A stretch of 42,969 nt of DNA, from contig JAMCUF010000005.1 in the NCBI GenBank assembly GCA_023381755.1, forward strand, positions 1 through 42,969. Direction: 5' to 3'. Below, piece after piece: positions 5,011-42,910 of this stretch. The translations under genes were made by a program, and so were the position numbers. This stretch comes from Deltaproteobacteria bacterium. Lineage in GTDB: Bacteria > SZUA-79 > Acidulodesulfobacterales > Acidulodesulfobacteraceae. Within the stretch, counting starts at the first letter, position 1; each line of letters starts with the position of its first letter. The notes below the pieces were generated by a model. It searched no databases. It was not told where the DNA came from and saw only the letters and a program-made list of their open reading frames with translations.

Positions 5011-5064
5011 ATTGCTTGCACCCGTTTAGACATTGGTTTTATATGTGGAAACTAAATTATAATA

Positions 5065-5073: not shown

Positions 5074-5139
5074 AACAGAAACAAGAATAAAATAAATTTT
5101 GTAAATCGCACGAAAGTAAAAATAACAAGGAGGTAAATT

Positions 5140-5742
5140 ATGTCAGAAGAAAAACAAGGGGTTATTTCAACTATTGTTGCAATTCAGGATACAACCGGAA
5201 ATCCGGCGCCGCTTGGTTTAATGGGATTTGGCATGACGACGGTGCTCTTGAATTTAGCAAATGCAGGCGTCTATGGCCTCGGAAGCATGATTCTCGCAAT
5301 GGGTGTCTTCTATGGCGGTATTGCACAGATTGTTGCAGGCATCGAGGAATGGAAAAAGAAAAATACCTTTGGCGCAACCGCTTTTACTTCTTATGGAGTT
5401 TTTTGGCTTTCATTAGTTGCTTTGATATTATTTTCAAAATGGGGCTGGATATCCGCAGCAGACAAAGGTAGTATGGTTGCGTATTTTATTATGTGGGGTA
5501 TTTTTACATTTATCATGTTCATCGGGACACTTAAACTCAACAAAGCGCTCCAAATTGTATTCCTTACCCTTTTTGTCCTGTTCTTCCTTCTTGCTATCGG
5601 TACAGCAACGGGCAGCACTGTTATTAATGTCGTTGCCGGCTGGGAAGGGATACTCTGCGGATTATCGGCTATTTATGCGGGGCTCGCCCAGGTTTTGAAT
5701 GAAGTTTACGAAAGAACCGTATGGCCGCTTGGGGCCAGATAG
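5140..5742 (+). CDS. Acetate uptake transporter, GPR1/FUN34/YaaH (AceTr) family
   Basis: This 200-residue inner-membrane protein has six hydrophobic helices. The family signature NPAPLGL is at residues 21-27 and is followed by a conserved helix rich in Gly and Asn. E. coli SatP of this family carries acetate and succinate as a hexameric channel. The gene lies 63 bases before acetyl-CoA synthetase, so import and activation of acetate are probably co-transcribed. A second, diverged member is on the minus strand at 29462-30034. In acidophiles such channels could also release acetic acid, so the direction of flow is not fixed by sequence. Confidence 0.92.
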
Positions 5743-5805
5743 CATTATACAAAAGACACCCGGGTATAGACTATAAAAGGGATAAAAAATATAGGGAGGA
5801 TATTC

Positions 5806-24236: not shown

Positions 24237-24758
24237 ATGGCAAAAAGTTCGGAAGAGTCGCCCGCAAGGCGAACTTTTATGATGGTTGTTATTGGTTTAA
24301 TTTCCACCGTAATAGGTATTGCTCTGGCGGTACCTATTCTTGGAGAAGTTTTAAGCCCGCTATTTAAAAAAAGAGATATTGTATGGACTAAACTTAGCGC
24401 AGTCAGTGATTTGGAAAAAATATCGCCGCTTACGCCAAAATTTATTCCTGTCTATTTCAAGGTTAAAGAGGGATGGTCTATAAATACCCTTCCAAGGCAG
24501 GTTATAGTGGTTAAAGATATTACGGGTGACCTGCATTTCTTTTCAAATCAGTGTACCCATTTAGGTTGTCCTTTGCACTGGATTCCCGCAAGACAAAAAT
24601 TTATGTGTCCGTGTCATGGCGGAATGTTTAATGTTCTTGGCGAGGTAGTCGGCGGGCCCCCGCCCAGGCCATTATATGAGTGGATTCATAAAATAGACAA
24701 AGGCAGCGTATTTATTCAAAATAAGTTTTTAGATAATCCAAAGGAGAGGGGGATCTAA
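24237..24758 (+). CDS. qcrA: Rieske iron-sulfur protein of a bc-type complex
   Basis: This 173-residue subunit transfers electrons from quinol to cytochrome c-type carriers. A single N-terminal membrane helix (about 14-36) follows SPARRTF, which resembles a reduced twin-arginine signal. The [2Fe-2S] site is complete: C106-T-H108-L-G-C111 and C124-P-C126-H127. The GGPPPRPL proline loop follows. Ligands are expected to be C106, H108, C124 and H127, with a C111-C126 disulfide. The stop codon overlaps the start of the cytochrome b gene (TAATG). Confidence 0.93.
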   Translation: MAKSSEESPARRTFMMVVIGLISTVIGIALAVPILGEVLSPLFKKRDIVWTKLSAVSDLEKISPLTPKFIPVYFKVKEGWSINTLPRQVIVVKDITGDLHFFSNQCTHLGCPLHWIPARQKFMCPCHGGMFNVLGEVVGGPPPRPLYEWIHKIDKGSVFIQNKFLDNPKERGI

Positions 24759-25864
24759 TGTTTAAAAAAATTCAAGATTGGTTTGACGAAAGAATAGGGC
24801 TTACCGAATTAATAAACGAATTTAACGGCGAAAGAATACCCAGAAGGGGCGGATGGGCCTACACATTTGGCAGTCTTTTAGCGTTTCTTTTCACCATTCA
24901 GGTTGTAACGGGAATATTTCTGCTATTCTATTACGTTCCATATTTTCCAATAGCAAGGAATGCGACATATTTTATAAAGCATCATGTTATGCTCGGCAAC
25001 GTCCTCCTGGGGATTCATCTATGGGGCGCGTTTACCATGATATTTTTTCTACTGGTTCACATGTCGAGGGTATATTTTTCCGGAGCTTATAAAAAGCCAA
25101 GAGAACTTCAATGGGTTGTTGGCATGGTTCTATTCTCCGTCGTAGTTATACTTGGTTTAACAGGGTATATGCTTATTGGAAACGAAAACTCGTGGTGGAC
25201 GATTAACGTTCTTACAAATGTCGCATCCCATACCCCGGTTATCGGCGGATTTTTAAGGATTATCATTAGAGGCGGGACAGAAACATCCGTTATAACGATG
25301 CAACATATATTTGCCGTTCATGTTTGGCTTTTGCCGGCTGTTGTGATGCTGTTTATTCCCATACACCTATTCATGATTAGAAAAACAGGCCATCAGGGTA
25401 TGGCACTGGAGTATAAGAATAACAAATTGCCGGATGATGACCCAAATAAATGGATTCGTCCGGACGGAACTGTTCCATTCTTTCCTGATCAGTTTTATAA
25501 AGATATGATAGTTGCATTAGGCGTATTCGCCGTGATATATATTCTTGCAGTCGTTGTGGGTGCTCCTGTAGGGCCGATGTACAGACCGCTTGCGCTTAAC
25601 TTTGCACCTGAAGCCGATTGGTATTTTCTTGCAAACGAAGAATTATTAAAATATTTCCCAGGTCACGGACTCATTATATTTTCTACATTCCTAGTTCCTA
25701 CGATTGGATTTATGATACTGTTTGCGCTGCCCTTTATTGACAGGGGGCATGAAAGGAGCCCGTTTAAAAGACCAGCGGCCACGGTTCTGGGAATTTTGTT
25801 TCTCCTTTTGTTAGTTTATTTAACATTAATCGGCGGCGAACCAAAAGCGCCTGCTACCGTATAA
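24758..25864 (+). CDS. qcrB: Cytochrome b of a bc/b6f-type complex
   Basis: This 368-residue integral membrane protein has about seven helices. The four haem-ligand histidines are H87 and H101 (14 apart) and H188 and H203 (15 apart). The extra residue in the second pair is the b6-type spacing. N- and C-terminal cytochrome b parts are fused in one chain. The quinol-oxidation (Qo) motif usually written PEWY appears as ADWY (286-289), with the local sequence APEADWYF. It lies between the Rieske gene and a haem c membrane protein, so these three probably form one quinol:electron-acceptor oxidoreductase. Menaquinol use is possible but not shown. Confidence 0.92.
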   Translation: MFKKIQDWFDERIGLTELINEFNGERIPRRGGWAYTFGSLLAFLFTIQVVTGIFLLFYYVPYFPIARNATYFIKHHVMLGNVLLGIHLWGAFTMIFFLLVHMSRVYFSGAYKKPRELQWVVGMVLFSVVVILGLTGYMLIGNENSWWTINVLTNVASHTPVIGGFLRIIIRGGTETSVITMQHIFAVHVWLLPAVVMLFIPIHLFMIRKTGHQGMALEYKNNKLPDDDPNKWIRPDGTVPFFPDQFYKDMIVALGVFAVIYILAVVVGAPVGPMYRPLALNFAPEADWYFLANEELLKYFPGHGLIIFSTFLVPTIGFMILFALPFIDRGHERSPFKRPAATVLGILFLLLLVYLTLIGGEPKAPATV

Positions 25865-25886
25865 AATCAAAAGAGGAGTAAATACG

Positions 25887-27431
25887 ATGAATTTAGGAGT
25901 TATCGATATAATAAATCTATTTATAAATAGGTTAGCGTTGGGGTTTATGGCGATAGCCTTTATATCCCATTACATAGGGATATTTAAAAAAGAAGACAGA
26001 TATTTCAGGCTCGCAAAACCGCTTATTTTAATATCTATAATAATTGGTGCGGTTCAGACCATAATTTACTTTTACTTCTTAAGCCTCCTTAGAAACGGAA
26101 TCCCAAACTTCTGGATACTTATGAATAAACTTCAGCCTGGAGTTATAGGCTATTCGATGGACTTTCTTTTGGCATTCTTAATTTTGGGGGCGATCTATTA
26201 TTACGGTTTTGATAAAAATGCCCCAAATAGGCATCAGGGTTGGAACGTATTTGCCGGCATAATAGCATTTCTGGCAGGCTTTGCTTCAGATACGTTTTAT
26301 AGTATTTCCGAAAGCTATACAATTGGGCCGTCGCCCGAAACAGCCATCAGGACCCCGATGGTTTTGCTTTTGATAATAGAAAAAAATATAGAAATATTTG
26401 CTCTATCCGGCGCTTTACTGGCATTATGGGCCGGGGTTAAATATATAGCCGCTTCCAAACAATCGGATAAAGAATATTATGATTGGCTCGGGTCATTTGC
26501 CAGTATTATAACCGTTATGTTTTTAGTAATCTATCCCATAGTTTATTATGGGTGGTTTAAACATTTCAGGGCTACCGCAAGTGCCGGATTTAACAGGATA
26601 ATGCTCAGTAATAGCTATCAGTGGATTATGTATGTGTTTCTTGGAACAATGGGAGGGGCGCTGATACTTGAATATATTTATATGCTGTGGAAACTTATAA
26701 ACGGCAGGGATAAAACTAAAACCACGGTTTCAACAGGACTTATATTTTTTCTGATAATAGTGGGAATAATTTCATTAGCCTTCGGAATGCTTCCCTTATC
26801 TATGGGGATTTTGGGAAATATGCAGCCTGTTAAATATTTATCGCTGGCCGGACTTTTTATAACAGGTTTTTTAGTGCTCGGGTACTACCTGAAAGATCTT
26901 ACTCCCGATTTTAAATTCGGCAATATTTCAAAATTTCCCCAGATTTTTTTAATACTTACAGGATTATGTGTTGCGGTCAATGTTTCCGTTATGGGTTATA
27001 TGAAAATCGCTGCAAGGGGAACAAATAGGATTATATATCAAACGATGAATTTAAACGGAACAAAGTATGTCCCCCCCATTATTTACCCGTGGCCCGTCAA
27101 AAAAGGATTTAGCCTTTTACATGACAAATGTGTTTTATGTCATACCCTAAACAGGGTTGAAAGATATAATGGGAAGACCGACGGGGATTGGAAAAATACT
27201 ATATTAAACGTAATGAAGAATGTTAACGGCTGCCCGATAACGGTTGCCGAAGGCAAAGAAATAGTTCATTATTTAAACTCATTGAACGTAATTGCCTATA
27301 ACAAGCATCTCGAAAAAGAACATAAAAAATGGACTCCGCCTGCTTCATTGCCGTGGGGAAAACTGCCTGCACCCGTTAAGCCATCAAAGGCAAATAAGTC
27401 TGGAAAGGCGCAGAAATCCATTAAAAAATAG
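25887..27431 (+). CDS. Polytopic membrane protein with C-terminal haem c site, third gene of the bc operon
   Basis: This 514-residue protein has about ten hydrophobic helices (residues 13-371), then a soluble tail with one CVLCH haem c site (415-419) and a Lys/Pro-rich end. The first helix contains NRLALGFMAIAFISHYIG. The Arg-Leu start and the in-helix His faintly recall subunit I of cytochrome bd (CydA), but I cannot confirm homology. It starts 22 bases after qcrB with a good ribosome site (GAGGAG), so it is likely part of the same complex. There it could take electrons from the Rieske protein through its cytochrome domain. The usual bc1 partner is a cytochrome c1 or a diheme protein with few helices, so this is unusual. 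Confidence 0.75.
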   Translation: MNLGVIDIINLFINRLALGFMAIAFISHYIGIFKKEDRYFRLAKPLILISIIIGAVQTIIYFYFLSLLRNGIPNFWILMNKLQPGVIGYSMDFLLAFLILGAIYYYGFDKNAPNRHQGWNVFAGIIAFLAGFASDTFYSISESYTIGPSPETAIRTPMVLLLIIEKNIEIFALSGALLALWAGVKYIAASKQSDKEYYDWLGSFASIITVMFLVIYPIVYYGWFKHFRATASAGFNRIMLSNSYQWIMYVFLGTMGGALILEYIYMLWKLINGRDKTKTTVSTGLIFFLIIVGIISLAFGMLPLSMGILGNMQPVKYLSLAGLFITGFLVLGYYLKDLTPDFKFGNISKFPQIFLILTGLCVAVNVSVMGYMKIAARGTNRIIYQTMNLNGTKYVPPIIYPWPVKKGFSLLHDKCVLCHTLNRVERYNGKTDGDWKNTILNVMKNVNGCPITVAEGKEIVHYLNSLNVIAYNKHLEKEHKKWTPPASLPWGKLPAPVKPSKANKSGKAQKSIKK

Positions 27432-30880: not shown

Positions 30881-31732
30881 TTGAATAAAAAGATTGCTTA
30901 TTTCCCGGGCTGTGCGGGGCCTCGCAATGTAAATTTAGAGGCTATATTTAAACTGCTGGACGTAGAGGTGGAGCCTGTTTTGGAGTGGAACTGTTGCGGA
31001 GCACCCCCGGCCTGTTACAAGCCGAGTTTTTTCAATAGAGTGGTAATGCCTCTCAGAAACTTGGGTATTTCCCAGCAAAAAGGCGGTGATTTTTTATATT
31101 CGGGATGTCAGGTTTGCGTTAAACAGATAAACGGCGCCCTTAAAATAGTAAACTCGAATTCCATGTTCGAAAATCAAGCAGAGTACAGTCTTAAGCCTTT
31201 CAATGCAAACCTGAAAAAAATCAAAAGCGGCTCTACAGGCGCTTTCCATCTTATCGACATTATCACTGATCCAGATGTAAACAAAAATCTTTTAAATAAC
31301 GCTACAAGGAGCTTAAAGGGTCACTCAATACTGCTTTATACCGGTTGTTACCATGATAACCGGAGGGTTGGCATTTTAAAAGAAATCTTAAATTCGTTGG
31401 GTGCGGATGTCAATTTATACGGCGAGTGTTGCGGCGGAGAAAAATTACAAAATACCACCCCTGTGCATTCAAAAAGAATTGAAAATATTGATAATGTCGG
31501 CATGTTTTTCAAATTAATCAACCAAAAAGCGGATGAAACCGGTTCCGATTATATAGTCGCAATATGCTCTATGTGCGAAAAAAACATTAAGGACGGTATC
31601 GGATTATCGGATCTAGATATTTTTGCCCCGATAGCCGGGCTTATGGAGTACATAGGATTTTTGTTTGGTTTTCCGGGTTGCGGGGATTTAATAATTAGCA
31701 ATAATAGCGAAACTAAGGAATATTGCTTATAA
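30881..31732 (+). CDS. HdrB-like protein with two CCG domains
   Basis: This 283-residue protein has two cysteine-rich CCG domains of the type in heterodisulfide reductase subunit B, DsrK and related proteins. Domain 1 has C11, C38-C39, C76 and C79. Domain 2 has C156, C183-C184, C229 and C232. In HdrB each such domain holds a non-cubane [4Fe-4S] cluster that acts on disulfides. There is no membrane helix or signal. The start is TTG 30881 with an AAGGG ribosome site. It heads the operon with a molybdopterin oxidoreductase 37 bases later and has no HdrA or HdrC partner, so it probably exchanges electrons with the Mo enzyme or handles a thiol/disulfide substrate. Confidence 0.85.
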   Translation: MNKKIAYFPGCAGPRNVNLEAIFKLLDVEVEPVLEWNCCGAPPACYKPSFFNRVVMPLRNLGISQQKGGDFLYSGCQVCVKQINGALKIVNSNSMFENQAEYSLKPFNANLKKIKSGSTGAFHLIDIITDPDVNKNLLNNATRSLKGHSILLYTGCYHDNRRVGILKEILNSLGADVNLYGECCGGEKLQNTTPVHSKRIENIDNVGMFFKLINQKADETGSDYIVAICSMCEKNIKDGIGLSDLDIFAPIAGLMEYIGFLFGFPGCGDLIISNNSETKEYCL

Positions 31733-31768
31733 AATTTTAAAAAATTCTAAAAAAATGGAGGTAAAAAA

Positions 31769-34312
31769 ATGGATTTTGAGGAATTAAAAAGCGAGAAGTT
31801 TTTGCGGGTAAAGGATAACAGATTAATGAAAATAAAACCCGACCATCGCCCCCAGGAATCATCCAAAGATTATGATACCGTTCGCTATTCCACCTGCACA
31901 AATATGTGCGAGAGCGGCTGTGGACTTAAAATATTTTTAAAAGACGGCAAGATTGTCGATGTAATGGGCGATCCGGAGCATCCGCAAAACAGGGGCGGGC
32001 TTTGTTCCAAGGGTGTTGGTCAGATTCAATGGTGGTACGACCCATTAAGGGTTCATTATCCCATGATGAGAAAATCTTTAACAGGTGATTTTAAGAGAGT
32101 GTCATGGGACGACGCCCTTGATTTTGCCGCCGAAAAATTAATTAAATTATATAATGAATACGGCCCGGAGGCTTTGACAGTTTTTAGGACGGGAAGATCT
32201 TCATTTGGGAATAAAGAAGGCGGTGCAAGGTTTGCAAGAATATTCGGCACTCCAAATGTTTACGGTCAAGGGCCCATTTGCTGCGAAAGCCCAGGTGTAG
32301 CCACGAACTACGTCTTTGGCGCAAAGGGTTTGGGCAGGCTTATGAACCCGTCCCAGGACTGGAAGAATTCCAAATGTATTTTGGTTGTGGGAACGAATAT
32401 GGCGGCACAGGAGACGATAACCATGACCCATCTTTTAGATGCCAAGGATAACGGCGCGTTTTTAATAGGAGTTGACCCGCGTTTTAACGCAACTTTGTCA
32501 AAGTGCGATATTGGAATGAGAATTCGTTCCGGTTCGGATGCAATTTTATTTCTTACAATGGGAAATATTATTATTAAAGAAAAACTTTATGATAAAGAAT
32601 TTGTCGATAAGTGGGTTACGGGTTTCGAAGAGTATGCTAAAGAATGCGCCCAGTGGACGCCGGAGCGCGCCGAAAAGCTCACTTATGTGCCAAAAGAGAT
32701 GATTATAGAAGCCGCAAGAAGATTTGGTTCTGCAAGGCCGGCATCTGTCACAGGCAACTTAGGCACAGCGCAAATCTATAACTCCAACAATGTCAACAGG
32801 TCTATCGCGGCTCTTTTAGTGCTTACAGGTTCTATCGGCGTTAAAGGCGGTGGCTGGAACTGGCTTCATAATTGCCGTCCTCCGTTAAATTATGGAAATG
32901 ACTTAAAGGTTTTGCCGGGATTTAAAAGGCCCCAAATAACCGATAAATTAATATCGTGGGGGGACAGCTCCGTTCCATGTATTATAAACGCGATGATGTA
33001 TGAAAAACCGTATCCGGTTAAGGGTATTATATGGAACGGCGATCACCTGCCGCAATTTCCAAATTCATGGAAAATGGAAGAGGCAATGAAGAAGAATATC
33101 ATTAATATCCACCTTTCCATATACCCGAATCATACGTATATGTTTAGCCATGTTGCATTCCCGATAGCTATTTCCGTTGAAACCGACAGCATCTGCCATC
33201 ACGGAAACAACAGGCTTATTCAGTGGCATAACAAAGTAATACCTTATCAGCACGAACATAGGCCGGATATTGATGTTTTTGACGGCTTGGCAAAAAGACT
33301 TAAGGGACAGATAGGACACTTTAACAAGGTTGAATTTAACCAGTGGGGATATTACGAGGAAGGTCAGGATAAGGGAAGGGTTAACGAAATTAAGATGACC
33401 GATTTCTTTAACGAACAAGAATCTTTGACAAGAGGTATTACCTATGATGTGTTAGACCCTGAGAAAAACCCCAGGGGCGGCCTTATGTGGCCAGTTTCAT
33501 CAAAAAAGGAGGCGGTGTTCCAGGATGACGAAGCCCTCTTAAGAGGAAAATGGATAATGTATAAAGATGGCGAGAACTATCCCGAATCGGATAAAAGATT
33601 TCCAACTCCGTCCGGAAAAATAGAACTTGCTTCCGAGGCACTGGAAAAAATCGGCTGGTATAGCGTTCCAACGCAGGTTGAGGGGTCGGAATCTCCTCTT
33701 GGAAATCTCGAAAGGGCTAAAAAATTCCCGTTAGTCTTAAATACGACCCGTATTGCGCAGTCCTTCCATGAAGGCGGACACTGGTGGCCGTGGAATGACG
33801 AGCTCGAACCTGACAGAAATATAGAAATAAACCCTGAAACTGCCGCCGTTATGGGTATCGAAGACGGGGATATGGTTATTGTGGAAAACGACAGAGGGTG
33901 GGTAGAGGGCCCGGCATGGGTTACGGAAATGGTTCCTGAAGACGGTATATGGGCAAACTTTGGATTTGACAGATATCAGCCGTTTCATCCGTATGAGTCT
34001 ATTAATACCGTTATAGACGATATAATAAAAGACCCTGTTTACGGCCAGATACAATTCAAGGCCATCCTTTGCAGGGTTTATAGAAAGGGCGATCCTAATC
34101 CTGATTTAACGGCCAAGAATGTTCTGGAGTTTTTACAAAAAAAATTCCCGGAGGTTTGGGATCCAAAATACCAGGATAAAAATGTCATCGTTGGAAAATG
34201 GAAGGATCATTGGAAGGAATACCATGAACTCAGTATAGGGTGGAAGAAGCTTGTAAACTTCAAAGAACCGGTCGAATGCACCCCCGATTCCTGCGATATT
34301 CGCAGATACTAA
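31769..34312 (+). CDS. Molybdopterin (Mo/W-bisPGD) oxidoreductase catalytic subunit, cytoplasmic
   Basis: This 847-residue member of the DMSO reductase superfamily has a [4Fe-4S] site at C43, C47, C51 and C79 (C-x3-C-x3-C-x27-C), followed by K81 as in formate dehydrogenase and polysulfide reductase types. The likely metal ligand is C171 or C172 in GPICCESPGVA. Aligned to formate dehydrogenase, C172 is the ligand and the catalytic His is Glu, so it is not an ordinary FDH. No Tat signal is present, so it acts in the cytoplasm. The C-terminal molydopterin dinucleotide-binding domain is complete, then a tail of about 80 residues ends in CTPDSCDIRRY. The ribosome site GGAGG is strong. The substrate is unknown; sulfur or arsenic compounds are only guesses. 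Confidence 0.88.
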   Translation: MDFEELKSEKFLRVKDNRLMKIKPDHRPQESSKDYDTVRYSTCTNMCESGCGLKIFLKDGKIVDVMGDPEHPQNRGGLCSKGVGQIQWWYDPLRVHYPMMRKSLTGDFKRVSWDDALDFAAEKLIKLYNEYGPEALTVFRTGRSSFGNKEGGARFARIFGTPNVYGQGPICCESPGVATNYVFGAKGLGRLMNPSQDWKNSKCILVVGTNMAAQETITMTHLLDAKDNGAFLIGVDPRFNATLSKCDIGMRIRSGSDAILFLTMGNIIIKEKLYDKEFVDKWVTGFEEYAKECAQWTPERAEKLTYVPKEMIIEAARRFGSARPASVTGNLGTAQIYNSNNVNRSIAALLVLTGSIGVKGGGWNWLHNCRPPLNYGNDLKVLPGFKRPQITDKLISWGDSSVPCIINAMMYEKPYPVKGIIWNGDHLPQFPNSWKMEEAMKKNIINIHLSIYPNHTYMFSHVAFPIAISVETDSICHHGNNRLIQWHNKVIPYQHEHRPDIDVFDGLAKRLKGQIGHFNKVEFNQWGYYEEGQDKGRVNEIKMTDFFNEQESLTRGITYDVLDPEKNPRGGLMWPVSSKKEAVFQDDEALLRGKWIMYKDGENYPESDKRFPTPSGKIELASEALEKIGWYSVPTQVEGSESPLGNLERAKKFPLVLNTTRIAQSFHEGGHWWPWNDELEPDRNIEINPETAAVMGIEDGDMVIVENDRGWVEGPAWVTEMVPEDGIWANFGFDRYQPFHPYESINTVIDDIIKDPVYGQIQFKAILCRVYRKGDPNPDLTAKNVLEFLQKKFPEVWDPKYQDKNVIVGKWKDHWKEYHELSIGWKKLVNFKEPVECTPDSCDIRRY

Positions 34313-34338
34313 TGCTTTTAGATAAAATAATGCGGTCC

Positions 34339-34367
34339 GGTTGCGGTAATTAAAGCCTTCCGCAACC
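34339..34367 (+). other. Intercistronic hairpin after the catalytic subunit gene
   Basis: GGTTGCGG (34339-34346) pairs perfectly with CCGCAACC (34360-34367) over a 13-base loop. No T-run follows, so it may stabilise or process the mRNA, or weaken read-through, between the catalytic and Fe-S subunit genes. Confidence 0.5.
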
Positions 34368-34439
34368 AAGTTATTATAATAAATTTAATTATAAAAAATA
34401 ATAAAACAATAATTAAAATTTAAAATTTAGGAGTATAAA

Positions 34440-35093
34440 ATGTCATCAGAATATGGATTTGATAGGTTTCATCTTGGAGAGGAAAGAGCGTCCAGGGTTA
34501 CGCTTCAGTCTTCCACTCCAAAATACTCAATGAAGGTAAACGTAGATAGGTGTATAGGCTGTATGTCTTGCGAAGTATCATGCAAAAAAGAACACAATCT
34601 TCCGGTAGGTCCCCGCAGAATGAGAGTTATTCAGGTTGGTCCTTATTTTGTAAAAAAAGGGCAGTTAAAAACAGTGTACCTGCCTATGAATTGCTTTCAT
34701 TGTGACGATGCTGCCTGCGTAAGAGCCTGCCCGACCGGTTCTATGCAAAAACGAGCCGACGGTATCGTCTTTAATGACCCAAATACATGTATCGGGTGTA
34801 AATCCTGCATTCATGCCTGCCCATTCGGTTCTCCTCAGTTTAATGACGCAACGGGAAAGGTCACAAAATGCGATTATTGCAGACACAGGATAGATGAGGG
34901 GCTTTTGCCGGCCTGTGTTACGCTTTGTTCGACTGATGCGTTATGGTTCGGCAATATAAACAGGATATCGACAATCGATAGGGAAAAAACCGCAAGGAAA
35001 ATGACGGAACATTTTTTTGGGTTTGTTACACCTAATGCGGCAATGGGTACGTCGGATACCCGGGACACGGATAATCCTGTTAAGGTCGGTTAG
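34440..35093 (+). CDS. Four-cluster ferredoxin subunit (DmsB/PsrB/PhsB type)
   Basis: This 217-residue electron-transfer subunit has four [4Fe-4S] sites: CIGCMSCEVSC (from C38), CFHCDDAACVRACP, CIGCKSCIHACP and CDYCRH with CVTLC. It is the usual partner of DMSO-reductase-type Mo subunits. There is no signal sequence, in keeping with the signal-less catalytic subunit. No NrfD-type membrane anchor gene follows, so electrons probably go to or from the HdrB-like protein or another soluble partner instead of directly to quinone. Confidence 0.9.
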   Translation: MSSEYGFDRFHLGEERASRVTLQSSTPKYSMKVNVDRCIGCMSCEVSCKKEHNLPVGPRRMRVIQVGPYFVKKGQLKTVYLPMNCFHCDDAACVRACPTGSMQKRADGIVFNDPNTCIGCKSCIHACPFGSPQFNDATGKVTKCDYCRHRIDEGLLPACVTLCSTDALWFGNINRISTIDREKTARKMTEHFFGFVTPNAAMGTSDTRDTDNPVKVG

Positions 35094-35191
35094 GATTTTC
35101 TATGCGCATGCCACTTAAATTTAAATTTGACCAATATTATAAATTTTTAATTATTAAACCGATTTGAAATTTAAAAGAGGGAGGATTTTAT

Positions 35192-35437
35192 ATGGCAGAT
35201 ATTGGAGCTGTCGGCACCGTCTATAACGCGCCGATAAGGGTCGATTATATTAACGGAGACTTCGATAAAGCGGAAGAAATTTTGCAAAAAGCCAATGTTC
35301 ATATCGTGGGAAGGAATGTGGCAAGCGTGACGCCTTACCACGCCACCATATTCGTTGGGTTGAAAGAGGAAAAAAAGGCTGTCGATTTAATTAAAAAAGC
35401 GGGCATTAAAACTTATGAAGTAGAGCCTTACTTTTAA
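35192..35437 (+). CDS. Small ACT-like protein of the Mo-enzyme operon
   Basis: I do not recognise a named family for this 81-residue protein. The order strand (PIRVDYI), helix (DKAEEILQKAN), strands (HIVGRNVASV and HATIFVGL), helix (EKKAVDLIKKA) and strand (KTYEVEPYF) fits a beta-alpha-beta-beta-alpha-beta ACT or ferredoxin-like fold. It has no cysteines. It has a very strong ribosome site (GAGGGAGG) and is followed directly by a terminator, so it is the last gene of the operon. Its place suggests a regulatory, chaperone or small subunit role for the Mo enzyme, which is inference. Confidence 0.7.
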   Translation: MADIGAVGTVYNAPIRVDYINGDFDKAEEILQKANVHIVGRNVASVTPYHATIFVGLKEEKKAVDLIKKAGIKTYEVEPYF

Positions 35438-35492
35438 ATTAATAAGGTTTTGACTTAAGAATTGCATTTAAGAATCACGCTATTATGATTAT

Positions 35493-35530
35493 GCCGGCAA
35501 ATAATTTGCCGGCTTTTTATTATTTTTATT
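35493..35530 (+). terminator. Strong rho-independent terminator
   Basis: GCCGGCAAA (35493-35501) and TTTGCCGGC (35505-35513) form a 9-pair stem with a 3-base loop, followed by TTTTTATTATTTTTATT. It separates the Mo-enzyme operon from the cofactor operon that starts with moeA. Confidence 0.9.
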
Positions 35531-35545
35531 AATGAAATAAAAATT

Positions 35546-36832
35546 ATGCAGGGTAAAACAGCGCAGGATTTATTGAAATTGGCTTTTGAGAATGTCAAAA
35601 AAATAGATTTATCGGAGGAATTACCGGTTGAAGACAGCCTAGACAGAATTATATCTGAAGATATCGTTCCGGCAAATAATGTTCCTCCGTTTGTCAGGTC
35701 TGCGGTTGACGGTTTTGCTTTAATATACTCGGATGTCTTTGAAAAAAAAATAAACCGGTTTAAGGTTGTCCGGCAAATTACCGCAGGTTATTCAGGCAGG
35801 TTAAATCCTTTAAATTCGGGCGAAGCTGCTTTTGTAACTACAGGCGCCCCTGTTCCTCCCAATGCGGACAGCGTGGTTTTAGTTGAGGATGCGGACGAAT
35901 ATTCCAACGGACAAATGATATATAGAAAAAGAGTCGAAAAGGGTTCATATATATCTCCGGTCGGCGATGACATAAAAGCGGGAGAATTGCTTTTTAAAAA
36001 GGGGCATAAGATAAGGATCTGCGATATTGCGGCACTGTCGGGTATTGGATTTAAGCATGTTCCGGTTTATAAAAAGCCGGTAGTGGGAATATTATCGGGC
36101 GGAAATGAGCTTATAGCTCCGGGAGAAGATATAAGCGAAAATAAAATTTACGATATAAACACTACGGCTCTTAAATCGCTTGTGAAGGATGCCGGCGGTA
36201 TTCCCGAAGTTATCGGGGTGGTAGAGGATAAATTGGATAGGTTAATAGGTATCCTTGCCGATTCCGATAAATCAAAAAGATATGATTTGATAATTTCAAC
36301 CGGTGGTACGGGCGCTAGTTTTTTGGTTTTAGAAGACAAAGAAATTACCAACTTTTATGATTTGATACCCGCCGCTACCTCCAAAGCAGGAAAGCTTCTG
36401 TTCCACGGGGTCAGGCTTGTGCCCGGAAAACCTACATCCTTTGGAATTTTAAATTACGGGACACCCATATTTGCCCTTGCAGGCTGGCCGTATTCGGCTA
36501 TAATAACATTTGACCTTTTTGTAAGACCGTATATACAAAAGATGATGAATGCAGCCAATATTTATAAAAAATATCCCACGGTTTCTGCCAGACTTAAAGA
36601 AGACGCATCATCGGAGAAGGGTGTTAGAAAATATTTTCAGGTTAAGCTTATAAACGAAGCGGGCGCATTATTTGCTTCGCTCGTACCATCCCCCCTCCCC
36701 CCCTCCCCACCAAGGTCTTTAAGCCCCATGATTAAAGCGTCCGGAAGTTTCGTCATGGACGAAGATACAACCTTAATTAAAGCAGGGAGTATCGTTGGGG
36801 TTACATTGAACGATTATGAAATTATCGGGTAA
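35546..36832 (+). CDS. moeA: MoeA-family molybdenum insertase, divergent
   Basis: This 428-residue protein matches MoeA, which inserts molybdate (or tungstate) into adenylylated molybdopterin. Typical parts are VPPFVRSAVDGFAL, VTTGAPVPPNADSVV, GILSGGNEL, DINTTALKSLV and VPGKPTSFG. Two things differ. The usual GGxSxGxxD loop reads GGTGASFLVLED (about 253-264), and the C-terminal domain has a proline-rich PSPLPPSPPRSLSP run (about 383-396) encoded by a C-tract. No clear ribosome site precedes ATG 35546, which follows a terminator closely. It is 2 bases from the MoaA-like gene. Confidence 0.88.
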   Translation: MQGKTAQDLLKLAFENVKKIDLSEELPVEDSLDRIISEDIVPANNVPPFVRSAVDGFALIYSDVFEKKINRFKVVRQITAGYSGRLNPLNSGEAAFVTTGAPVPPNADSVVLVEDADEYSNGQMIYRKRVEKGSYISPVGDDIKAGELLFKKGHKIRICDIAALSGIGFKHVPVYKKPVVGILSGGNELIAPGEDISENKIYDINTTALKSLVKDAGGIPEVIGVVEDKLDRLIGILADSDKSKRYDLIISTGGTGASFLVLEDKEITNFYDLIPAATSKAGKLLFHGVRLVPGKPTSFGILNYGTPIFALAGWPYSAIITFDLFVRPYIQKMMNAANIYKKYPTVSARLKEDASSEKGVRKYFQVKLINEAGALFASLVPSPLPPSPPRSLSPMIKASGSFVMDEDTTLIKAGSIVGVTLNDYEIIG

Positions 36833-36834
36833 AA

Positions 36835-37686
36835 ATGAAGCAATTTTTATTTAATACATTTAGCGACAAAAAAGATTTTAAAATCGGTGCAATTGATAGG
36901 TTTGAATTTGAAATACCTTCTTTAAGAATATCCCTTATAAGCAATTGTAACGAGAAGTGTTTCTACTGCCACAATGAAGGGATTTCTTCAAAGATGCCTT
37001 CGGTTATTCAAACCGGGGACATAATAAACGCGATATATTCGGTAAAAGACTATGGGTTGCGAAAAGTAAAGTTTACCGGCGGAGAGCCGCTTTTATTTAA
37101 GGATTTGAAAAATCTTTTATATAGCGTAAAACATGTTGGAGATATGGATATATTTATCACTACCAATGGAGCGCTTATAAAAAAAAGGATAAAGGATTTA
37201 AGCCCGAATATAATAAGTAAAATATCGGTAAGTCTCGATACGCTGAGCGAAGAGAAGTATAAATTTATTACAGACAAAAGTTTGCTTAACGATGTATTGG
37301 CGGGGCTTGAACTTTTAGGAAAAAACGGCTATAAAGTCGAGATAGACAACCTGTTATTAAAAGGGTTAAATACAGACAAGCAAAGCTTAAAAAATATAAT
37401 AAATTATTGCATAAAAAATGGGTTTGACTTGCAATTTATTGAATTATCGGATAAAACAACGGCCGGCGTCTATGACAAATATTATGTTGACCCGGTAAAA
37501 ACGTTACGGAAGATAGGTTTAGATTTTAATACCGAAAAATTAAATGACAGAAAGTTTTTTAAAATAAACGGCATTAAAGTAACCCTTTGCAGAAGCGTAA
37601 AGAATTTGCGCGAATCTTCCGCCGGTAGATGCTCAGGGTTAAGACTCCTTCCAAACGGCTACCTGAAAGATTTTTTTTATGAATAA
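36835..37686 (+). CDS. MoaA-like radical SAM protein lacking the normal C-terminal cluster
   Basis: This 283-residue protein has the radical SAM cysteines C38, C42 and C45 (CNEKCFYC) and the GGEPLL motif of MoaA (GTP 3',8-cyclase). The rest follows MoaA up to CSGLRLLPNGYLKDFFYE. There, of the three C-terminal cluster cysteines (C-x2-C-x13-C), only the middle one (C266) is in place. The third is Phe, and the roughly 50-residue tail with the GG end is missing. C252 is a possible substitute ligand. No frame of the following DNA restores the tail. It is next to a PTPS-like gene, so it may make a different pterin precursor. Confidence 0.85.
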   Translation: MKQFLFNTFSDKKDFKIGAIDRFEFEIPSLRISLISNCNEKCFYCHNEGISSKMPSVIQTGDIINAIYSVKDYGLRKVKFTGGEPLLFKDLKNLLYSVKHVGDMDIFITTNGALIKKRIKDLSPNIISKISVSLDTLSEEKYKFITDKSLLNDVLAGLELLGKNGYKVEIDNLLLKGLNTDKQSLKNIINYCIKNGFDLQFIELSDKTTAGVYDKYYVDPVKTLRKIGLDFNTEKLNDRKFFKINGIKVTLCRSVKNLRESSAGRCSGLRLLPNGYLKDFFYE

Positions 37687-37709
37687 TTAATTTAAGGGGT
37701 TTATAAGCT

Positions 37710-38198
37710 ATGATAGTAGAACTAATCGGAAAAGAAGCCGGTTTGACGTTTGAATGCATGCATATAGTCCCCGGCAAGGGGGACTGCTCCAGGATTCATC
37801 CCCATTTTCACTATGTCGACGTGCTGGTTGACGGGGAATTTGACGATAAAAGAAGGATTGTGCATTTGTACAATTTGAAAGCCTTGATAAAAAAGATATG
37901 CGCTACTTTTGAAGATAGAATTTTGATGGCTGATTATCCAGAAAGTATTCAGCGCATTGTTGATAAAGGTTCGCATTATCAGATAGCAATAAATAACAAA
38001 CTTTATCTGATTCCAAAAATAGATGTCTTTAAAATTGAAATTCCATCCCTGAACATCGAAGACCTTACAGTTTACTTCGCCCGCGAGCTTGTCCATGATT
38101 TAAAGGAGGATGAATTATTTAAAACACTTAATTATGTCGAGGTTACACTTAGCGAAGGTCATGGTCAACGCGGGAAATTGCGTTTGGATTTAAAATGA
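37710..38198 (+). CDS. 6-pyruvoyl-tetrahydropterin synthase/QueD-like protein
   Basis: This 162-residue member of the PTPS/QueD fold has zinc ligands expected at H18 (FECMH), H30 and H32 (IHPH), with the catalytic-type C26 just before. The usual DH pair reads D69-R70, so the catalytic His is lost. A conserved Glu in VTLSEG is present. Known members act on 7,8-dihydroneopterin triphosphate in queuosine, folate or biopterin routes. Here it lies between a MoaA-like gene and mobA and overlaps mobA by 4 bases. A role in a pterin cofactor linked to Mo/W is therefore more likely than queuosine, but this is inference. Confidence 0.82.
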   Translation: MIVELIGKEAGLTFECMHIVPGKGDCSRIHPHFHYVDVLVDGEFDDKRRIVHLYNLKALIKKICATFEDRILMADYPESIQRIVDKGSHYQIAINNKLYLIPKIDVFKIEIPSLNIEDLTVYFARELVHDLKEDELFKTLNYVEVTLSEGHGQRGKLRLDLK

Positions 38199-39196
38199 TT
38201 AAAAAATATAAAGAATTAAGCTGTCTTATTCTTGCAGGCGGCGAATCTGAAAGGTTTGGGGAAAATAAAGCTTTATTTAATTTTGCGGGGTTTACGTTTA
38301 TAGAAAGAGCATTAAATGTTGCACTAGATGTCAGCGCCGATATAGTCATCTCTATCAGGGAAGAAATGCAAAAAAAAGACTATAGCATGGCCATAGACAG
38401 AATAGTCAGGCAAAGGCACGAAAAAAATAAACAAGAAGAATTGAATATCAGGTTAGTTTCAGATGATATAAGCTGCAGATTAAGGGGGCCCGTCAGAGGC
38501 ATCTTCAGTTCTATTAAAAGCCTGACGGGTGAATTTGTTTTGGTTATGGAGTGCGATGCCCCGTTTTTTGATGCGGAGGCCGTAAGGATGTTAATAGAGA
38601 AAGCCAAGGTGGAAAAAGTTAAAGCCGTTGCGCCGCTATGGCCAAATTCCGTTGTTGAGCCTTTGCTCGCGTGCTATAAGAGAAAAGATGCCGTTGGCAT
38701 ATTGAACCTGCTTAATGATTATTCCCTCAATCTAAAAGAGGATTTTTTGTTTAACGACACGATAAATATTTTAAGGCTCTTGTCCTCTGTTTATTATTAC
38801 TCTATTTTGGATATGGTTGAAAATAATCCAGGTTTACAGCCTTATATATTTATAAGTATAAATAGTAAAAAGGATTTAGAGAAAATGGCGCAAGGTAAAA
38901 AAATATTCCCGGCATATTTTAAATATTTAATGAAAGGCAGCGCAAAAAGTGTTAAAATAAAAAAAGCAAACAGGTTTTTTAATTTTAAAAATCCCGATAA
39001 AGAGCCGTACGGGGTTATGGCAAAGGCGCTGTATTATTGGCAGGTTTATGCCGCAACGAAAAATTACGTATATCTTGGAAAGTCTGTTTGTTTCTTTAAA
39101 AAGGACGGCGCGGTTTACCTCAAAAACAGATTAAATTTTATGGGTGGTAAATTAATACGAATATTACCGGATTTTAACAATATGATAACGATATAA
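38195..39196 (+). CDS. mobA: Molybdenum cofactor guanylyltransferase with C-terminal extension
   Basis: Residues 1-230 match MobA, which attaches GMP to molybdopterin: LILAGGESERFGENKAL (near 11-27), CRLRGPVRGIFSS, VMECDAPFF with the metal-binding Asp, AVAPLWPNSVVEPLLACY, and the closing FISINSKKDLEKM. About 100 further basic and aromatic residues follow and match nothing I know. An inserted segment after VISIREEMQKK is also longer than usual. The ATG overlaps the stop of the PTPS-like gene (ATGA). MGD-type cofactor fits the DMSO-reductase-family enzyme upstream. Confidence 0.88.
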   Translation: MIKKYKELSCLILAGGESERFGENKALFNFAGFTFIERALNVALDVSADIVISIREEMQKKDYSMAIDRIVRQRHEKNKQEELNIRLVSDDISCRLRGPVRGIFSSIKSLTGEFVLVMECDAPFFDAEAVRMLIEKAKVEKVKAVAPLWPNSVVEPLLACYKRKDAVGILNLLNDYSLNLKEDFLFNDTINILRLLSSVYYYSILDMVENNPGLQPYIFISINSKKDLEKMAQGKKIFPAYFKYLMKGSAKSVKIKKANRFFNFKNPDKEPYGVMAKALYYWQVYAATKNYVYLGKSVCFFKKDGAVYLKNRLNFMGGKLIRILPDFNNMITI

Positions 39197-39211
39197 GAAT
39201 AAGAGGTTTTT

Positions 39212-39766
39212 ATGAATAAAAATAAGCTTACCAATCTAAAAGAAGATCTCAAGAAAAATCAGGTCGAAATCATGCTTTATCCTTCAAAATGTGACGGCTG
39301 CGAGAACGAGGGATTTACGGCCTGCGTTAAGGCATGCGAGACGCATATGAATGAAAAATACGGGTCTAAATATACGGGAGCAAGGATTAACATAAAAAAA
39401 AAGGCGGATAAATTTTTTCCTGTAATATGCCGTAACTGCGAGGAAGCGCCATGCGTCGACGCATGTATGCCGGGGGCAAGATACAAAGATATGGAAACCG
39501 GCTGGACTATCACCAATTATAAAAAATGCGTCGGATGCTGGATGTGCGTAATGTCTTGTCCGTTCGGGGCTATCGAAAGGGCGAAAGAGGATCATTTTGC
39601 GTCAAAATGTGACGGGTGTGTGGACGATGATACCCCAAAATGCGTCGCGGCATGCAAGAAAGGAGCTTTAAAAAGGATAGGCATTAAAAACTATTCTTAC
39701 GAAAGAAGGCTTATGATAGCAAAAAAGATTTATGGTCCATATATAAAATCCGGCGTAAAGGGATAA
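39212..39766 (+). CDS. Four-cluster polyferredoxin (AorA/HycB-like)
   Basis: This 184-residue protein has four cysteine clusters: CDGCENEGFTACVKAC, CRNCEEAPCVDAC, CVGCWMCVMSCPFGAIE and CDGCVDDDTPKCVAAC. It is soluble, with no signal sequence. The size and pairing with the FAD/NAD oxidoreductase 16 bases downstream resemble AorA and AorC of the Aromatoleum-type tungsten aldehyde oxidoreductase, but the catalytic AorB is absent. It may shuttle electrons between the Mo enzyme and NAD(H). Confidence 0.85.
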   Translation: MNKNKLTNLKEDLKKNQVEIMLYPSKCDGCENEGFTACVKACETHMNEKYGSKYTGARINIKKKADKFFPVICRNCEEAPCVDACMPGARYKDMETGWTITNYKKCVGCWMCVMSCPFGAIERAKEDHFASKCDGCVDDDTPKCVAACKKGALKRIGIKNYSYERRLMIAKKIYGPYIKSGVKG

Positions 39767-39782
39767 AAGAGGGGATTAGGTT

Positions 39783-41111
39783 ATGAAATACGTTATTATT
39801 GGAAATTCATACGCAGGTTTATCATGCGGGAGCGCCATAAGAAGGTTTGATAAAACGGGTGAGGTTACGATTATATCCGACGAAAATTACAGGGCATATG
39901 CAAGACCGTTAATTTCTTACTATTTAGAAGGGAAAACAACGGATGAAACCATCTGGTATAAGGATGACGATTATTATGAGAAGAACGGCTTTAAACTGAT
40001 ATTGGGAAAAAAAGTGGTTTCGGTTGATACTGCCGCCAAGAAGGTTGTTATCGAAGACGGAACTAAAATTGATTATGATAAACTTTTTGTCGGATCCGGC
40101 GGGACCCCTTTTGTTCCGCCAACCGAGGGGTTTAATCCTGAGTCTTTGATGATGGGAACTTTTACAAGATTCGATGATGCTAAAAAGATAAAAAATGCCG
40201 CTAAAATGGCCAAAAACAAGGAAGCCATAGTCGTAGGCGGCGGACTCATCGGATTAAAAGCGTCGGAAGGGTTGCGGGCATTGGGTCTTCATGTTACCAT
40301 CGTGGAGCTTTTACCCCGCGTTTTAGGTTTGGCATTAGATGAAATATCCGGAAATATTACGGCAAAAAGGCTAAACGAAAACGGAATAGATACCGCAACG
40401 GGGGAAACCGTTACAAAAATTAATCTGAATGAATCGGGGAACCCCACGAGCGTTATCTTAAAAAGCGGGAAAGAACTTATCGCGGATATTGTCGTGGTTG
40501 GCGTGGGCGTCAGGCCTAATGTCGGATTTCTTGAGGGCAGCGGCGTAAAGATAGACAGGGGTATTATTGTCGATAAAACAATGATGACAAGCGTGAAAGA
40601 TGTTTATGCAGGAGGTGATGCCGTCGTTATTTACGATGTTATCAATAAAAGGCCTAATATTATCGCAATTGTTCCGCTCGCATGCGAGGAAGGAAGGGTT
40701 GCCGGCACAAATATGGCCGGAATTTACAGGGAATATTCCGGAGGGATGGGGCTAAATTCGGTTGAAATTTATGGATTGCCTATTGTAACTATAGGACTTA
40801 CCAACCCCGCTGATGACTCTCAAAAGGTTTATATGTTTCAGGACGATGAGAAGATTTATAGAAAGCTTGTTTATGACGGGGAAGTGCTGGTTGGGGCAAT
40901 TTTGCTCGGGGATATTGCCGGAAGTGGCATATTATCGGCTATTATCAGGCAGGGGTTAAAATGCCTTAAATATAAGGATGAATTTTTAAACGGAAATATA
41001 TATTCCTTTGTTATAGATAATGAGTTTGAGATATATAATATAAACGAGGGGTATGCTATAAGGGGTGATTTTGAAGATTTACCAGAGTTTTCAAGAACAA
41101 ATTGGAGATAA
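39783..41111 (+). CDS. FAD/NAD(P)-dependent oxidoreductase (AorC / rubredoxin reductase-like)
   Basis: This 442-residue flavoprotein has an N-terminal FAD motif (IIGNSYAGLSCG, 5-16), an NAD-binding motif VVGGGLIGLKASEGL (near 149-163), an FAD-closing motif VYAGGDAV (near 273-280), and a C-terminal dimerisation-like domain. It resembles the NADH-binding parts of assimilatory nitrite reductase, rubredoxin reductases and AorC. It lacks the redox CxxxxC of classic disulfide reductases. With the preceding polyferredoxin it likely links ferredoxin-type electrons to NAD. The next small gene starts 6 bases later. Confidence 0.85.
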   Translation: MKYVIIGNSYAGLSCGSAIRRFDKTGEVTIISDENYRAYARPLISYYLEGKTTDETIWYKDDDYYEKNGFKLILGKKVVSVDTAAKKVVIEDGTKIDYDKLFVGSGGTPFVPPTEGFNPESLMMGTFTRFDDAKKIKNAAKMAKNKEAIVVGGGLIGLKASEGLRALGLHVTIVELLPRVLGLALDEISGNITAKRLNENGIDTATGETVTKINLNESGNPTSVILKSGKELIADIVVVGVGVRPNVGFLEGSGVKIDRGIIVDKTMMTSVKDVYAGGDAVVIYDVINKRPNIIAIVPLACEEGRVAGTNMAGIYREYSGGMGLNSVEIYGLPIVTIGLTNPADDSQKVYMFQDDEKIYRKLVYDGEVLVGAILLGDIAGSGILSAIIRQGLKCLKYKDEFLNGNIYSFVIDNEFEIYNINEGYAIRGDFEDLPEFSRTNWR

Positions 41112-41117
41112 AAGCTT

Positions 41118-41357
41118 ATGATAGATGAAAATAATGACAATAGCGAAAATAAAAAGGGATTGAGCACAATAATAGAACAATTGTTGTTAGAGGCAGGGGA
41201 TATCGGCGAAGAAGATTTCGGCAAGTGGTACGAAAAAAAGAGGAAAGTTTTTAACATAGGAATTAGAAAAACGCCCACAAAAGAAGAATTTATAAAATAT
41301 CTTAATTATGCCTTAAGCCTATGCCCGCAAGGCGATGCCGCAATCTTTCCCAATTAA
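41118..41357 (+). CDS. Small hypothetical protein in the cofactor operon
   Basis: This 79-residue soluble protein is of no family I recognise. It has an acidic N-terminus, a predicted helix (LSTIIEQLLLEAG), a Lys-rich middle (KWYEKKRKVFNIGIRKTP) and a short helix ending in LCPQGD. It starts 6 bases after the flavoprotein gene with GGAGA upstream, which supports translation. It could be a small partner of the flavoprotein/polyferredoxin pair, but nothing in the sequence proves it. Confidence 0.6.
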   Translation: MIDENNDNSENKKGLSTIIEQLLLEAGDIGEEDFGKWYEKKRKVFNIGIRKTPTKEEFIKYLNYALSLCPQGDAAIFPN

Positions 41358-41383
41358 TCCTTTATCTATTATTCATTTATAAA

Positions 41384-42349
41384 ATGATTAAAATTAATGC
41401 AGGCAAACCTATTCTTGCCCCCATGGCCGGTATAACCGGCTATCCCTTTAGAAAAATAGCATTAAAATACGGCGCCGGTTTTTGTTTTACCGAAATGGTT
41501 AGCGCAATAGGTTTTTTGCATAACGATAAGGCCTCTTTAGAATTGGTAGAAGCCGGAAAAGATATTGAAAAGACCGGAATTCAGCTTTTTGGAAATAGTC
41601 CTGGGATTTTGGCGCAAGCCGCTGAAAAGGCGGCAGGTATCGGTTTTAAAGTTGTCGATATTAATATGGGGTGTCCCGTTAAAAAGGTTGTGAAGACCGG
41701 AGCGGGAAGCGCAATCTTGAAAGATACGAAAGAATTTTCTCTTATCGTTAAAACCGTCAGGCGCGCGATTAAAGATTGTATATTTACGATTAAGATTAGA
41801 AGCGGTTTTGACGGTAGTTCCATAAATTTTATGGAAATCGGTAAGATTGCCGAATCCTTTGGCGTCGATGCCGTATTTTTTCATCCAAGAACCAAGTCTT
41901 TAATGTTTGGAGGGATTGCTGACCACTCCTTGACTAAAAAGCTTAAGGATGCGGTTGCCATTCCCGTATATGCAAGCGGCGATATCTTTACCGTTGATGA
42001 CGCTATAAGGGTAAAAACCCTTACAGGCGCGGACGGCGTTATGTTTGCAAGGGGCGCGATCGGCAAGCCGTGGATATTTACAGAATATCTTGATGCCGGC
42101 AGCCCGCCTGCAAAAAAAGATTTAACGGATATTAGGCTAAAAACAGGCATAATTATAGAGCTTATGGAAGAAATGAGCCTGTTTTACGGTGAAAAAAGAG
42201 GGCATAAACTCATAAGGCCCCATCTGTACGGTTTTTTAAGGGGATTTAAGGGGTCAAAGGGCAAAAGAAGCGAGGTTAATAATGCCCAAAATGGAAAAGA
42301 ATTGGTAAATATATTGAAAATGGTGACAGACGAGGTTGAATTCGCCTGA
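41384..42349 (+). CDS. dusB: tRNA-dihydrouridine synthase
   Basis: From ATG 41384 the protein has 321 residues and starts MIKINAGKPILAPMAGITG, the usual Dus opening. The FMN barrel motifs are present: FTEMVSA, QLFGNSPGILAQAAE, DINMGCPVKKVVKTGAGSA with the catalytic Cys, KIRSGFD, FHPRTKS, ASGDI and GVMFARGAIGKPWIF. It reduces uridine in the tRNA D loop. A longer in-frame start at 41321 would overlap the previous gene and add 21 residues foreign to the family. Its place inside a Mo-cofactor operon is probably incidental. Confidence 0.93.
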   Translation: MIKINAGKPILAPMAGITGYPFRKIALKYGAGFCFTEMVSAIGFLHNDKASLELVEAGKDIEKTGIQLFGNSPGILAQAAEKAAGIGFKVVDINMGCPVKKVVKTGAGSAILKDTKEFSLIVKTVRRAIKDCIFTIKIRSGFDGSSINFMEIGKIAESFGVDAVFFHPRTKSLMFGGIADHSLTKKLKDAVAIPVYASGDIFTVDDAIRVKTLTGADGVMFARGAIGKPWIFTEYLDAGSPPAKKDLTDIRLKTGIIIELMEEMSLFYGEKRGHKLIRPHLYGFLRGFKGSKGKRSEVNNAQNGKELVNILKMVTDEVEFA

Positions 42350-42358
42350 AACCGGATT

Positions 42359-42910
42359 ATGATGAAAAATAATACAAATATTAATAACATGGGGAAAAGT
42401 CCGAAAATTATCTCGTTTGTCGCCAAATCAGGTACGGGCAAGACTACCTTAATCGAAAAGATAATAAAAATACTAGTAGAAAAGGGTTACAAGGTTTCAT
42501 CCCTCAAACATACCGACCATGACTTCGAGGTTGATTTTCCGGGAAAAGACTCATGGAGGCATAAAAATGCGGGCACATTTTCAACAATGCTTCTTTCGGA
42601 GAAAAAAATGGCTTTTTTTAGCGATATAGAAACGCCGTGTGGGATTAAAGATATAGCCTCAAAATTTTTTGGCGGGTCCGATATAGTTATAATAGAAGGA
42701 TTTAAAGATTTAAACGTACCTAAAATAGAACTTTTCAGAAGACAAGCCGGTTCCGGCATGGAACTTAAATACATAAACGACCCCAACTTAGTTCTCGTTT
42801 GCGGGGATAATCTTATTAAAGGCATAGAGAAACCGCAAATAAATATAAACGATGCAAAAAATATTGCAGGTTTCATTGAAAAAACAGTAATGGGCATTGA
42901 AATATCATGA
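42359..42910 (+). CDS. mobB: Molybdopterin-guanine dinucleotide biosynthesis adaptor protein
   Basis: This 183-residue GTP-binding P-loop protein assists MobA. The Walker A is AKSGTGKTTLIEK (about 22-34), then SSLKHTDHDFEVDFPGKDSWRH with the typical KHxxHDFexDxPGKDSyRH pattern, and IVIIEGFKDLNVPKIELFR for the Walker B/base region. ATG 42359 follows dusB by 9 bases. A further gene overlaps its stop (ATGA at 42907-42910). Together with MobA it points to bis-MGD cofactor. Confidence 0.93.
   Translation: MMKNNTNINNMGKSPKIISFVAKSGTGKTTLIEKIIKILVEKGYKVSSLKHTDHDFEVDFPGKDSWRHKNAGTFSTMLLSEKKMAFFSDIETPCGIKDIASKFFGGSDIVIIEGFKDLNVPKIELFRRQAGSGMELKYINDPNLVLVCGDNLIKGIEKPQININDAKNIAGFIEKTVMGIEIS

Follow-up and report, generated by a model that had tools for sequence, protein, structure and literature searches.

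A 42,969-nucleotide stretch of contig JAMCUF010000005.1 (the window), from a bacterium of the phylum SZUA-79, carries a gene cluster that combines a protein resembling subunit B of heterodisulfide reductase (HdrB) with a molybdenum or tungsten (Mo/W) oxidoreductase of the dimethyl sulfoxide (DMSO) reductase family. The original prediction placed a four-gene operon here, and all four open reading frames are present. However, further closely spaced genes follow on this strand 3' of position 35437, and the conserved unit consists of ten genes (positions 30881 to 41111; Table 1). Their order is HdrB-Mo-FeS-ACT-MoeA-MoaA-PTPS-MobA-FeS2-Ndh, where Mo denotes the catalytic subunit, FeS and FeS2 are iron-sulfur proteins, and Ndh is a flavoprotein of the flavin adenine dinucleotide (FAD) and nicotinamide adenine dinucleotide (NAD) type. 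A search for the four-gene order in other genomes had been proposed as a check; the comparison made here found the ten-gene block intact in all 11 SZUA-79 loci compared, with neighbors that mostly vary between loci on both sides. This indicates that HdrB is part of the unit and that the unit ends at 41111, not at 35437, the four genes first described being real but only the beginning of it. Because the block is conserved across the phylum, chance is excluded as the origin of the arrangement. The hosts are acid-mine bacteria of SZUA-79 ("Candidatus Acidulodesulfobacterales"), and the nearest genomes with a name are SZUA-79 and "Candidatus Acididesulfobacter".

Table 1. Genes of the conserved block and the two genes that follow it in the window
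Feature	Position	Strand	Basis and remarks
HdrB-like protein, 283 aa, two CCG sites	30881..31732	+	Pfam CCG; TTG start, backed by orthologue alignment; first gene of block
DMSO-reductase-family catalytic (Mo) subunit, 847 aa; ligand position C171; 4Fe-4S site C43, C47, C51, C79	31769..34312	+	Pfam, alignments
FeS subunit, 217 aa, 16 cysteines	34440..35093	+	Pfam 4Fe-4S; four 4Fe-4S clusters expected
ACT-like protein, 81 aa	35192..35437	+	Predicted model and Foldseek
MoeA-like molybdopterin molybdotransferase, 428 aa	35546..36832	+	Pfam; block member
MoaA-like radical SAM protein, 283 aa	36835..37686	+	Pfam; under curated MoaA cut-offs; block member
PTPS/QueD-like protein, 162 aa	37710..38198	+	Pfam, NCBIfam; block member
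MobA-like protein, 333 aa	38195..39196	+	Pfam; under curated MobA cut-offs; block member
FeS2, AorA/HycB-like, 184 aa, 16 cysteines	39212..39766	+	Pfam, PDB matches
Ndh, AorC/PadH-like FAD/NAD(H) flavoprotein, 442 aa	39783..41111	+	PDB match; last gene of block
DusB-like gene, outside conserved block	41321..42349	+	Present in 2/11 compared loci
MobB, outside conserved block	42359..42910	+	Present in 3/11 compared loci

None of the ten genes encodes an NrfD anchor, HdrA, or HdrC, which agrees with the earlier description. The HdrB, Mo, FeS, ACT-like, and FeS2 proteins showed neither a twin-arginine translocation (Tat) signal nor a transmembrane segment, and the same signal test revealed the N-terminal twin arginines of Escherichia coli NapA and PhsA.

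The catalytic subunit was explored using domain profiles, alignments, and phylogeny. All three domains of the DMSO reductase family scored above their Pfam cut-offs, namely Molybdop_Fe4S4 (54.9 bits, cut-off 22.7), Molybdopterin (119.2 bits, cut-off 24), and Molydop_binding (69.2 bits, cut-off 26.8), and the protein was rightly described as a signal-less member of this family. Of the two cysteines of CCESPGVA, the first, C171, occupies the metal-ligand position and aligns with the ligand of FdhF, NapA, PhsA, PsrA, and ArrA. The assignment of this motif to the metal site thus holds for its first cysteine, whereas the second, C172, is replaced by Thr in one Nitrospirota subgroup (L090 and L092). 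The N-terminal cluster site reads C43-x3-C47-x3-C51-x27-C79.

Formate dehydrogenases (FDHs; FdhF, HDCR FdhF, and the F420- and NAD-linked enzymes) are the closest proteins by score, with a shared domain order and an aligned ligand position. Fdh-alpha gave the top NCBIfam score of the subunit (281.7 bits) and FDHs were its best PDB matches, which could point to an NAD-linked formate dehydrogenase or CO2 reductase. The Fdh-alpha cut-off is, however, 666.25 bits, and in the alignment His141 of FdhF corresponds to C172 or Thr and Arg333 to His367, so that both catalytic residues of FDHs are replaced. Moreover, grouping with the FDH references was rejected by the approximately unbiased (AU) test (p 0.0009). 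FDH identity was rejected on these three grounds; formate is an unlikely substrate, and we regard an FDH or CO2 reductase as extremely improbable.

The Cys ligand is also shared with polysulfide, thiosulfate, and arsenate reductases (PsrA, PhsA, and ArrA). PhsA, the other top NCBIfam score (240.3 of 694 bits), was rejected as the identity of the subunit, since its cut-off was missed, no Tat signal is present, and the block holds no NrfD-type membrane subunit. None of the curated NCBIfam cut-offs was reached, and no protein named TtrA, SoeA, or PadB was among the 25 NCBIfam matches listed. In the careful tree, the ten members of the family grouped as a single long-stemmed clade (100/100) that fell outside the reference clades of FDH/Nap and of PSR/PHS/ArrA. 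Fragments copied from alignments stood in for PsrA, ArrA, acetylene hydratase, and two FDHs; the reference trees left out TtrA, SoeA, and PadB, and two relatives in which the ligand Cys is missing (L104 from Desulfobacterota and L095 from Nitrospirota) were set aside. The AU test did not reject grouping with PSR/PHS/ArrA (p 0.25), and a faster, larger tree placed the clade beside FDH/Nap. By profile and tree, the catalytic subunit appears to form a clade of its own outside the curated families tried. The placement outside FDH, PsrA/PhsA, and ArrA that the original prediction had left to phylogeny is supported by the careful tree and the NCBIfam cut-offs, more firmly for FDH, whose grouping the AU test rejected, than for the other branch.

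The last two genes of the block encode a putative electron transfer module. The PDB matches of FeS2 were HycB proteins and AorA, and the best match of Ndh was AorC (8c0z_E, E 6e-49, residues 1-405), its next solved relatives being about 11 orders of magnitude weaker. FeS and FeS2 have 16 cysteines each, enough for the four clusters that the FeS subunit had been credited with. For AOR, the path from the W cofactor through the AorA clusters and the AorC FAD to NAD was established by cryo-electron microscopy (PMC10413684). The present unit resembles AorABC of Aromatoleum aromaticum (PDB 8c0z; PMC10413684) in pairing a four-cluster AorA-like FeS protein and an AorC-like FAD/NAD subunit with a Mo/W enzyme. 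It differs in that its catalytic subunit belongs to the DMSO reductase family and in having HdrB, an ACT-like protein, and another FeS subunit besides. No AFOR-family enzyme was found in any of 30 SZUA-79 genomes, the control genomes being positive. Since these genomes have no AFOR enzyme and the operon has an AorC-type module, this module would most economically serve the DMSO-reductase-family enzyme of the operon. The "soluble route to a quinone-free acceptor" that had been suggested may thus be kept in a more specific form, with NAD(H) as the simplest acceptor, because the unit carries an AorA/AorC-type module that is also kept in Nitrospirota. The other suggestion, a thiol/disulfide or persulfide step coupled to the Mo center, may also apply.

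An NADH-linked assimilatory-type nitrate reductase, with a NasC-like catalytic subunit and a NirB/NasB-like flavoprotein, would also use NAD(H). The catalytic subunit has one of its better NCBIfam scores with NasC (191.9 bits), Ndh reaches 223 bits with the NirB model, and the faster tree placed the clade next to NapA as well as FDH. Nevertheless, the cut-offs are 1100 bits for NasC and 578 bits for NirB, the NapA models gave only 89-94 of about 904-931 bits, and the conserved block contains neither a nitrite reductase nor a nitrate transporter. In addition, the excerpted text of the report on this order (PMC6776010) covers nitrogen fixation and the use of ammonium and urea, with no mention there of nitrate assimilation. 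This makes nitrate reduction highly unlikely.

The HdrB-like protein was recognized by the Pfam CCG profile (39.3 bits, cut-off 20.6), and a second CCG site was read from its cysteines, the two sites comprising C11, C38-C39, and C76/C79, and C156, C183-C184, and C229/C232. These ten cysteines are invariant across 16 orthologues, though identity to the window sequence drops to about 51%, and the two CCG domains first proposed are therefore confirmed. Within the phylum, HdrB identity goes down to about 48-50%, whereas the adjacent catalytic subunit stays 90-96% identical, a contrast that is unusual for operon partners. A profile search of the PDB returned only methanogen HdrB chains. Because all ten CCG cysteines are invariant and methanogen HdrB proteins are the nearest solved relatives, the protein probably keeps the capacity for two non-cubane clusters. 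It shares both CCG sites with subunit B of HdrABC, but its unit lacks HdrA and HdrC, and its NCBIfam score to the HdrB model is 29.9 of 345.15 bits.

CCG proteins are also established in the anchor/quinone role of SdhE. SdhE of 8-methylmenaquinol:fumarate reductase is one of the few NCBIfam matches that cover nearly the whole length of the HdrB-like protein (23.6 bits), so that it might instead be an SdhE-type anchor or quinone-interacting subunit. The SZUA-79 enzyme would then be peripherally bound to the membrane and would have menaquinone as an electron partner, either alongside NAD(H) or in its place. The SdhE score is, however, lower than that of the HdrB model, both being far below cut-off, and the solved relatives are all of the HdrB kind. 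The maximum 19-residue mean hydrophobicity is 1.51, with no clear hydrophobic segment, and an SdhE role alone leaves the conserved NAD module unexplained. We consider this alternative unlikely.

The distribution of the unit was assessed with in-depth searches that covered SZUA-79, Nitrospirota, and Desulfobacterota. The catalytic gene occurs in 25/30 SZUA-79 genomes, and in two of them (G000 and the 97%-complete G016) its product is the sole protein with a Molydop_binding domain. The HdrB orthologue was found in exactly the same 25 genomes, at 457-506 bits, whereas the CCG paralogue that came next scored no more than 72 bits. The same five absences for both genes would arise by chance once in 142,506 by simple counting, a figure that is descriptive only, given linkage and kinship. 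As far as gene occurrence can tell, the HdrB-like protein is a genuine, co-inherited partner of the Mo gene in SZUA-79, and its proposed partnership agrees with the intact block in 11 loci and the two intact CCG sites. An Ndh orthologue is present in 26/30 genomes. The enzyme appears to be a new, taxonomically restricted branch of the Mo/W-bis(molybdopterin guanine dinucleotide) (bis-MGD) enzymes and seems to belong to the core gene set of this acidophilic phylum, of which little is known.

Outside SZUA-79, catalytic subunits with about 53-54% identity were found in 9/296 sampled Nitrospirota genomes and in all six genomes of one class, and Desulfobacterota gave one distant match in 395 genomes. 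The range of the family may be wider than found. The Mo, FeS, ACT, FeS2, and Ndh genes recur together in Nitrospirota, where the better assembled loci have the order Mo-FeS-ACT-(VWA protein)-TorD-like-FeS2-Ndh. The VWA-domain-like protein of these loci, of about 780 residues and with no NCBIfam match, and the TorD-like chaperone (4170-6581 and 3242-4090 in L088; also in L091 and L023) possibly have a role in cofactor insertion. In one Nitrospirota subgroup (L089, L090, and L092), QmoA/QmoB-like genes and an HdrB gene adjoin the Mo gene divergently, on the opposite strand.

Taken together, we propose with moderate confidence that the unit encodes a soluble, NAD(H)-linked Mo/W oxidoreductase of the DMSO reductase family, which in SZUA-79 has an HdrB-type second electron port. 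Gene content, block limits, co-inheritance, the ligand and cluster cysteines, and the kinship of Ndh with AorC are evident from the sequences; from them we infer a cofactor, a physical complex, an electron path, and a role for HdrB. Cys171 of the 847-residue subunit would hold the Mo or W of a bis-MGD cofactor, and the subunit would also bind one 4Fe-4S cluster. Electrons would pass in the cytoplasm through the four clusters of the FeS subunit and the four of FeS2 to the FAD of Ndh, and to or from NAD(H). The cofactor would be supplied by MoeA, MobA, and the MoaA-like protein, perhaps with the help of the PTPS-like one, and the ACT-like protein would be a small component with a structural or regulatory role. 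The HdrB-like protein would, in SZUA-79 alone, act as a fixed second port, probably swapping electrons with a thiol/disulfide partner.

Several points weigh against this proposal. Four genes lie between FeS2/Ndh and Mo-FeS-ACT, and the module could serve another enzyme; direct electron transfer from FeS to FeS2, or to HdrB, is assumed; two genomes (G013 and G020) have Ndh with no Mo or HdrB detected; and in the Nitrospirota relatives the SZUA-79 HdrB orthologue was not found, only distant CCG proteins. The intervening cofactor genes and the two Ndh-only genomes would fit a module of the NAD(H):ferredoxin type, made of FeS2 and Ndh, that shares the operon by chance, the Mo enzyme having HdrB and/or a free ferredoxin as its partner. 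However, the same association is found in Nitrospirota with other genes in between, two genomes that are both 99% complete (G014 and G027) lack Mo, HdrB, and Ndh together, and no AFOR enzyme is there to use the module, while G013 and G020 are just 86% complete. An independent module therefore seems improbable to us. Among the genomes searched, the gene for this HdrB is confined to SZUA-79, and its absence from the Nitrospirota relatives indicates that HdrB is dispensable for the core enzyme. HdrB is not supported as the defining partner that it was first taken to be, given that the unit also has an AorA/AorC-type NAD(H) module, which the Nitrospirota relatives keep without it.

For the substrate of the proposed NAD(H)-linked enzyme, an inorganic oxyanion or sulfur compound is the leading guess. 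It comes from the sulfur-cycling lifestyle reported for the order (PMC6776010) and from the Qmo neighborhood in some Nitrospirota, and not from the enzyme itself. A more elaborate and rather doubtful version is a hybrid, in which a DMSO-reductase-family subunit sits on an AOR-type wire to NAD(H) and an HdrB-type disulfide gate was added in one phylum. Such a soluble enzyme would split or merge electrons between NAD(H) and a thiol/disulfide carrier (e.g., DsrC) while turning over an inorganic sulfur substrate such as sulfite.

The MOLY cluster, proposed for sulfur disproportionation (PMC12998232), also has a Mo A subunit and an FeS B subunit, as well as a TorD-like protein, which the present family has in its Nitrospirota loci. 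By description, however, MOLY enzymes are likely extracellular, whereas the unit described here is signal-less and has an NAD module. Searches of open-licence full text brought up no paper that apparently describes the ten-gene unit. Each of its parts is of a familiar type, the literature searched did not yield the combination, and the catalytic clade fails the tests of the curated families tried. If the proposal is true, the NAD module of AOR is a portable part that can work with catalytic subunits of another family. Should the HdrB port be true as well, CCG disulfide chemistry would be tied to a Mo/W center without HdrA or HdrC. The ten-gene set is compact and includes several cofactor genes, which makes it suited to expression and assay.

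The 81-residue protein of the unit reached no Pfam or NCBIfam family above threshold. Its predicted model (predicted local distance difference test score of 74) matched mainly ACT domains in Foldseek, none below E 0.001, which supports the ACT-like fold that had been named for it. The MoaA-like protein is short, does not reach any of the MoaA cut-offs, and apparently misses some of the cysteines usually present at the C-terminus. It could be either a divergent MoaA or a radical SAM enzyme of another kind. The PTPS/QueD-like gene, which lies between those for the MoaA-like protein and MobA, is a constant part of the unit, and its product contains CxxxHxH, a motif resembling the one in the active family. 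To our knowledge, PTPS proteins have no standard place in Mo cofactor synthesis.

Of the two relatives set aside, L104 (1492-3690) apparently has Ser in place of the ligand Cys and is preceded by a gene resembling a corrinoid-activation ATPase, and L095 lies near an apparent 2-oxoacid oxidoreductase subunit gene. Elsewhere (24237-27431), the window carries Rieske and cytochrome b genes and, after them, a gene for a 514-residue membrane protein, with no NCBIfam match at 1e-20, that carries one CxxCH motif.

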